Assembly (NCBI GenBank): GCA_035652535.1
Contig: DASRDP010000139.1
Span: 1 to 34,366 of the forward strand
Reading direction: 5' to 3'
Origin: Chloroflexota bacterium
GTDB taxonomy: Bacteria > Chloroflexota > UBA6077 > SHYK01
DNA length: 34,366 nt
Every line of letters begins with the position of its first letter. Within the stretch, counting starts at the first letter, position 1. Of this stretch, positions 17,061-18,160 are shown piece after piece. Both the position numbers and the translations under genes were made by a program. The notes below the pieces were generated by a model that made no database searches, was not told the DNA's origin, and saw only the letters and a program-made list of their open reading frames with translations.

Positions 17061-17071
17061 CTCCAGCGCAG

Positions 17072-17106
17072 AAAAAAGGAGACGCCTCGGACGAGACCGA
17101 GGCGTC
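17072..17106 (-). terminator. Intrinsic terminator of the Tyr-rich protein gene
   Basis: A perfect 10-bp stem GACGCCTCGG / CCGAGGCGTC (17081-17090 and 17097-17106) with a six-base loop is followed, on the minus strand, by TCC and six T residues (17077-17072). It lies 24 bases after the stop of the minus-strand gene. From the other side it also lies 20 bases after the plus-strand membrane protein, but without a T run in that direction. Confidence 0.85.
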
Positions 17107-17129
17107 CCCGTCGGATGCGATGACGGGAA

Positions 17130-17597
17130 TCAGCAGGGGAAGCAGTAGGAGTTGTCCCCCGAGTAGTAGGGGTAGAAGCCGCCATACCACAGAGGATACG
17201 CATAGCCGGCGCCAAACGGCGTGTAGTAGCTGGAAAACGGCGAGCCCCAGTAGCCGTAGTTACCGTAGTACCCGCCCCAGTATGGATAGGCGTACGCATA
17301 CCATGGATAGCTGTAATACGAGTAGGGATAGTAGAAACCGTAGTACCAGGGGTTGCCGTAGTATGGTGAGTACGTGCTGGCGTAGTAGTTATAGAAGTAC
17401 GGGAAGCTATAGGAGTACGGGTACCCGGTGAGACTGCTGTAGCAGCCGTTGAGGGTGCTGTAGTAAAGTCCGCCTCCGCAGCCGTTGAAGTACTGTGCGC
17501 TGGCCGGTTGTACCTTGGCGCCGGCGATCGTGACGATGACGAACACGGAAAGCGCAACCGCGACCCGGGCCGCCGGCGAAAATATCCCGCCCCGCAT
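17130..17597 (-). CDS. Secreted tyrosine-rich protein, function unknown
   Basis: The 155-residue protein has a clear signal peptide: basic start, hydrophobic core VAVALSVFVIVTIAGA and cleavage site ASA|Q at 34/35. By my count 39 of the 121 mature residues are tyrosine, the rest mostly Gly, Pro, Ser, Phe, Trp and Asn, in loose repeats such as YPYSYSFPYFY. Four cysteines frame it, two near each end (40, 52, 152 and 155), suggesting disulfides. Lys and Arg are absent from the mature part and it has one acidic residue. A GGAGGGG ribosome site precedes the ATG, and a strong terminator follows. The composition suggests a structural, adhesive or crosslinkable surface protein; no family is recognised. 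Confidence 0.75.
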   Translation of the reverse strand: MRGGIFSPAARVAVALSVFVIVTIAGAKVQPASAQYFNGCGGGLYYSTLNGCYSSLTGYPYSYSFPYFYNYYASTYSPYYGNPWYYGFYYPYSYYSYPWYAYAYPYWGGYYGNYGYWGSPFSSYYTPFGAGYAYPLWYGGFYPYYSGDNSYCFPC

Positions 17598-17663
17598 GGA
17601 TCCCCTCCGCTTACATGATGTCTGGCCACTGGGGTTTTAGCAAGTCCGGTGGAATGCGTCCAT

Positions 17664-17677
17664 CGCGCGCGCGCGCG
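17664..17677. repeat. (CG)7 dinucleotide tract
   Basis: Fourteen bases of strictly alternating C and G lie between the divergent Tyr-rich and sunset-domain genes. Such tracts can adopt left-handed DNA under supercoiling; no function is shown. The rest of 17598-17884 has no gene I can support. On the minus strand TTGCTA and CATCAT with a 17-base spacer (about 17642-17613) form a weak promoter candidate for the Tyr-rich gene. Confidence 0.5.
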
Positions 17678-17884
17678 TCTGACGACTCGTGACGTGTTAG
17701 TGATCAGCGTCGCAGAGTGTTGACGCAGCATTGTCGCGAGATGCGAGGCGTCGCGCCCTGGACGGCTTTCGCCCGACCGCTGGCCGGTACGTCGCAGCTC
17801 CCGCCCGGGGTGTATAGGATCTGTCGGTCCCCGCACAAGGACCGCTTGCCGCGCTACACGGGCCCCTCGTACATTGTGCACTTA

Positions 17885-18160
17885 ATGGGACGGCTGCTGT
17901 GGGTGGCGCTACTGATCACGGCCATCATCGGTGTCGGCCTGTGCAGCCAGCTCGGCCTGGGGACCGTGCCCACCGCCGGGGGGCGCGCGGTTGCCCCCTC
18001 GAGCCAGCATGATTGCCCACCTACCCACCCGGTGAAGGGCACATTCAACCGACGCTATCACATGCCGAACGACCTCTTCTACGCCCAGACGGATCCGGTT
18101 GCATGCTTCATGACCGCCGCGGACGCCACCGCGGCCGGGTATCGGGCTGCCAGCCACTGA
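17885..18160 (+). CDS. Small membrane-anchored sunset-domain protein
   Basis: From ATG 17885 the product is 91 residues: a short transmembrane or signal segment (LLWVALLITAIIGVGLC) and a C-terminal domain with CPPTHPVKGTFN...YHMPNDLFYAQTDPVACF and the tail AADATAAGYRAA. This matches the small 'sunset' domain often found after nucleases and at surface-protein ends (pattern CPIKGN...YH.PGG.FY..T.PE.CF...AEA.AAGYR). Its function is unknown. The cysteine in IGVGLC could be a lipidation site or simply part of the helix. The frame opens upstream to 17717, and GTG at 17810 is another possible start; no ribosome site settles it. Confidence 0.65.
   Translation: MGRLLWVALLITAIIGVGLCSQLGLGTVPTAGGRAVAPSSQHDCPPTHPVKGTFNRRYHMPNDLFYAQTDPVACFMTAADATAAGYRAASH

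Follow-up and report, generated by a model that had tools for sequence, protein, structure and literature searches.

Why would a bacterium export a protein of which about one third is tyrosine, and is the frame that encodes it a real gene? The question arises from a window of 34,366 nucleotides, the whole stretch of DNA analysed here, from a Chloroflexota bacterium (contig DASRDP010000139.1). The locus has the following features:

17130 to 17597, minus strand: open reading frame of the Tyr-rich exported protein, 155 amino acids, ATG to TGA, with a codon-usage score of 18.0 that favours coding.
17602 to 17608, minus strand: ribosome-binding site GGAGGGG, read from the sequence, immediately 5' of the ATG.
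17068 to 17109, minus strand: intrinsic terminator 3' of the stop codon, a 13-bp stem followed by a T run (TTTTTT).
17598 to 17884, no strand: intergenic region common to the Tyr-rich gene and a divergent small gene at 17885.
17496 to 17597, minus strand: signal peptide, residues 1-34, MRGGIFSPAARVAVALSVFVIVTIAGAKVQPASA, with a predicted cut between ASA and QYF; supported by the sequence, an AlphaFold2 helix and likeness to the signal peptides of other Tyr-rich genes.
17133 to 17495, minus strand: mature low-complexity chain, 121 amino acids, 32% Tyr and essentially uncharged, judged by composition and pLDDT.
17442 to 17480, minus strand: N-terminal cysteine pair C40...C52.
17133 to 17150, minus strand: C-terminal SYCFPC (C152, C155), identical in a paralogue elsewhere in the genome (C116, L093:2670-3155).

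The gene is read on the minus strand (17597 to 17130), a detail absent from the initial annotation. That annotation had called it a real gene with a strong ribosome site and a terminator, and the elements listed above bear this out. The frame is open even though 9.2% of all single-base changes in its mature part would produce a stop, compared with 3.1% on average, and 7.4% at most, in the other genes of the window. Terminator-like sites were seen twice where 0.3 were expected; the hairpin and T run of the one behind this gene occupy 17109-17078. The gene contains neither a DNA tandem repeat nor an internal peptide repeat, its TAC:TAT ratio is 29:10 and its GC3 is 0.81, so its Tyr-richness is not an artefact of repeated DNA. 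In the intergenic region, neither a sigma-70 consensus site nor an Rfam family or other known RNA element was found. The divergent gene on its far side (17885-18160, plus strand) encodes a small protein whose N-terminus is hydrophobic and which carries an NCBIfam 'sunset' domain.

A recount of the 121 residues that follow A34 gave 39 Y, 18 G, 14 S, 12 P, 8 F, 5 W, 4 C and 1 D, and aromatic residues make up 43% of the chain. This agrees with the earlier hand count of tyrosines, with the reported lack of Lys and Arg (Glu and His are missing as well), with cysteines near each end (positions 40, 52, 152 and 155) and with the predicted signal peptide. Tyrosine accounts for only 2.4% of residues in 170 called genes of this genome. 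The binomial probability of at least 39 in 121 is thus about 1e-32, far beyond chance. An AlphaFold2 model, which carries little force because its input was a single sequence, is confident only in a helix at residues 8-25 of the signal peptide; pLDDT is below 50 nearly throughout the mature chain.

Homology searches found no relatives of the protein. There was no useful match in 40 relatives, no match in genome contigs, plasmids or viral contigs, and no Pfam or NCBIfam family in profile searches. The best PDB hit (7aih mL79, E = 0.23) is not meaningful. Tools of the BLAST and HMMER type are weak here, as they score low-complexity sequence poorly. The initial annotation had named conservation in related genomes as the point on which its reading could fall, and none of the four other same-family genomes holds an orthologue. 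All four keep the order of the rpsF-ssb-rpsR-SurA-like block of the window (S6-SSB-S18-SurA-like); beyond it they differ, and there is no Tyr-rich frame at that position.

A family within the genome itself supplies the evidence that conservation across genomes failed to give. We searched for the codon pattern TAYTAY-TAYTAY-TAYTAY with gaps of at most 18 bases (YY..YY..YY), using the reversed pattern as a control. The window's own genome has 71 matches at nine places and a single match to the control. A second pattern, YxYxYxY, added two further places (C36 and C116). Reading these loci yielded 12 Tyr-rich exported proteins on 10 contigs, the window gene and 11 dispersed others. For two of them (C84 and C115) the start codon is uncertain. 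Sets of this kind escape standard homology searches; the 11 further genes came to light through codon patterns alone.

Eight small members lack any recognised domain: the window gene (C139), C85, C104, C115, C116, C128, C152 and C163a, with the Pfam scan covering all of these except C115. Their mature chains contain 32-51% Tyr, the window protein being the least Tyr-rich. Across the whole set, dense stretches contain 26-52% Tyr, and those of the small members are almost free of K, R, D, E and H. The window gene fits the common plan, in which a signal peptide precedes a chain or stretch that carries no charge and is rich in Tyr, Gly, Ser, Pro and Asn. Cysteine pairs occur in several members, not in all. 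The C116 paralogue contains 40% Tyr and internal YGYYPYSSY repeats.

Since the low-complexity parts cannot be aligned, common descent of the members rests on their signal peptides and one C-terminus. Pairwise signal-peptide scores average 31.2 within the set and 22.5 against controls, which were 13 other signal peptides of this genome, chosen with a simple rule and with lipoproteins among them. The best pair within the set scores 71, the best with a control 41 (permutation p = 5e-5). The window signal peptide resembles the others only moderately: its best score, 41 with C128, lies inside the control range. The signal peptides of C85 and C163b are atypical. Gln directly follows the A-x-A cleavage motif in 10 of the 12 members. 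Within the set, SYCFPC ends only the window protein and C116. These two genes also account for both occurrences of YCFPC-stop in the genome, a doubling unique among 400 genomes; six of the 399 others have it once each, at about the level of the reversed control.

Contamination of the assembly was considered and ruled out. All Tyr-rich loci have a GC content of 0.65-0.67 and tetranucleotide correlations of 0.91-0.97 with the window (0.84-0.89 for same-family genomes), and genes of the window have family-level matches. Among 29 genomes of the class, this one alone carries the signal, the other 28 having 0-3 matches. Across 400 genomes of the phylum, in none of the others does the pattern exceed its control to a similar degree. 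Smaller excesses occur in G252 (9 against 0), G287 (33 against 11) and G379 (15 against 4), with some also in G391. In the genomes searched, these roughly a dozen genes, as judged from their sequences, are a genome-specific set.

The neighbouring genes differ at every locus and have no function in common. GC-rich hairpins follow the stop codon in most members; with neighbours that differ everywhere, this indicates that the genes are mostly single-gene units. Beyond weak hexamers, no upstream motif is common to the set. At one locus (C85, L045:6404-8256), directly downstream of the Tyr-rich gene and in the same orientation is a gene for a bactofilin-domain protein, whose N-terminus is hydrophobic.

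A set confined to one lineage and absent from its relatives could have arisen by drift of composition, in which export-targeted frames grew by TAY-rich slippage and have little or no function. The internal repeats of several members fit such an origin. The window gene has no repeat of either kind, however, and the repeats of the other members use different synonymous codons. Furthermore, TAY codons are one base away from stops, so undefended frames should break, whereas twelve intact frames keep their signal peptides. We give drift hardly any credence.

Four members join the Tyr-rich stretch to folded domains. C84 has two fibronectin III (fn3) domains, C36a a Big_7 and an fn3 domain, and C36b a Big_7 (bacterial Ig) domain. 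The C36 locus (L092:4447-8304) encodes two adjacent large exported proteins with Tyr/Gly/Asn-rich stretches and lies just upstream of gatC-, gatA- and gatB-like genes. The fourth, C163b (L051:7010-8110), is an exported protein that combines a type-1 copper domain with a 204-residue stretch containing 36% Tyr, and a LysM-glucosaminidase gene follows it. Its copper domain aligns with amicyanin over a C-TF-H-PR-M segment and an upstream His, and scores 41 bits against the NCBIfam amicyanin profile, below the cut-off of 110. It shares all four ligand residues (H, C, H, M) with amicyanin and plastocyanin-type cupredoxins (PF13473, PF00127; PDB 1sfd), which lack the Tyr-rich tail. A single-sequence structure model of the fusion is of low confidence.

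These fusions bear on two other explanations. The Tyr-rich stretch could be an anchor that binds wall or glycan, its aromatic residues stacking on sugars, and the proteins would then be retained at the surface rather than assemble into a material. Its junction to globular domains in four genes agrees with this, as do the LysM-glucosaminidase gene after the cupredoxin member and the bactofilin-domain gene after C85. Eight of the 12 members, however, have no other domain to anchor. The stretches also lack repeats of defined register, such as those that bind choline, and have no Pfam match. We regard an anchor as distinctly unlikely. Alternatively, closely spaced Tyr and Trp together with the type-1 copper protein could form a redox-active aromatic matrix that carries electrons or quenches radicals outside the cell. 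The amicyanin-like fusion is suggestive of this, but only one of the 12 members has a copper domain, and tests of the genes on both sides of it revealed no electron-transfer function. We regard a redox matrix as very improbable.

We favour a different account, in which about 12 dispersed genes supply exported, nearly uncharged, Tyr-rich low-complexity proteins that co-assemble into a surface coat or matrix to which the domain-bearing members contribute further functions (probability roughly 0.55). After export, the chains would stay unfolded and stick to one another through contacts of Tyr and other aromatic residues, spaced by Gly, Ser, Pro and Asn. At the cell surface, their co-assembly would produce an insoluble coat or matrix. 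Sticker-and-spacer assembly would agree with the lack of charge and with spacers of Gly, Ser, Pro and Asn, and the composition of the window protein fits that of phase-separating, prion-like low-complexity proteins. Disulphides between the terminal cysteines of some members could tie chains together, and would be optional because not all members have cysteine pairs. Found alone and beside folded domains, the Tyr-rich stretch would look like a module for self-association or retention. It may double as a retention tag by which the copper, fibronectin III and Ig domains become part of that material. The material could contain covalent Tyr-Tyr crosslinks but would not need them.

The initial annotation had proposed a secreted structural or surface material. 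This is strengthened by the 11 paralogue-like genes, the related signal peptides and the identical SYCFPC, whereas its adhesive, dityrosine-matrix and phase-separating variants stay suggestions. A dozen such exported proteins in one bacterial genome, some more than 50% Tyr and nearly chargeless, would offer aromatic protein materials from a simple genetic source, and a system in which to test sticker-and-spacer assembly outside the cell.

The best-known disordered structural proteins rich in Tyr come from animals, apicomplexans and diatoms. The diatom protein AC3362, which has been shown to belong to an insoluble organic matrix in the cell wall, and the cingulins are, like the set, exported, Tyr-rich and of low complexity, were found by composition and have no useful BLAST homologues; unlike the set, they are eukaryotic, Lys-rich and charged, and there is no sequence relation (PMC4220933). 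In named genomes, the matches listed place the motif YYPYxYYPY in many bacteria, including Paraburkholderia, Verrucomicrobia and Nitrospirae. Many of these Tyr-patch proteins and lipoproteins are likewise exported. Their patches are mostly shorter and contain Arg, His or Lys as well (the Paraburkholderia lipoproteins are an example), and none of those read among the matches listed is as uncharged and Tyr-rich throughout its mature chain. In the literature searched, no paper joined 'Chloroflexota' with 'tyrosine-rich', or 'Chloroflexi' with 'tyrosine-rich protein' and 'signal peptide'. Tyr-rich structural exoproteins are thus already known as a kind, and an uncharged multi-gene set in a bacterium is a new variant.

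Several known materials of this kind are cured by oxidation, and dityrosine is documented in insect resilin, Eimeria oocyst walls and Bacillus spore coats (PMC8746199). The proteins concerned are, like the set, Tyr-containing blocks of resistant extracellular or surface layers. Their crosslinking is documented, whereas in the set it is possible. Pfam and PDB searches found no sequence relation between the window protein and the dityrosine or Dopa proteins of resilin, oocyst walls or mussel feet, nor are the spore-coat proteins related to the set. Spore-coat proteins are, besides, deposited inside the mother cell and are not known to carry a Sec signal peptide.

Such precedents raise the possibility that dityrosine or Dopa chemistry links the chains covalently, yielding a resistant coat or adhesive comparable to resilin, the oocyst walls of coccidia, certain spore coats and mussel feet. 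In favour of this, the Tyr content of the set is far above that of known Dopa and dityrosine substrates (mussel FP-3/5, >10 mol-%; PMC4220933). Against it, Lys, the companion of Tyr in mussel glues, is absent. A DyP peroxidase was not found in the genome by a search whose control was positive, and a tyrosinase search gave no match, although its control was silent too. No oxidative-crosslinking enzyme adjoins the loci examined.

Two proteins of the multicopper-oxidase type were found. One gene (C13, L226:1079-2151) encodes a multicopper oxidase with a hydrophobic N-terminus, which would suit a crosslinking role, as would the type-1 copper domain fused to one member of the set. In this assembly, however, the oxidase gene is split over two overlapping frames, which reflects an error of assembly or else a genuine frameshift. 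The other protein (C5, L225:1057-2778) fuses a membrane domain to a NirK-like copper nitrite reductase domain. Because the enzyme side is thin, we prefer a mainly non-covalent coat or matrix, and consider oxidative curing possible but unlikely. We also entertain, as a long shot, a copper-doped Tyr material outside the cell, in which the dozen proteins co-assemble and the Tyr-tailed type-1 copper protein, held in the same phase, oxidises or wires the tyrosines.
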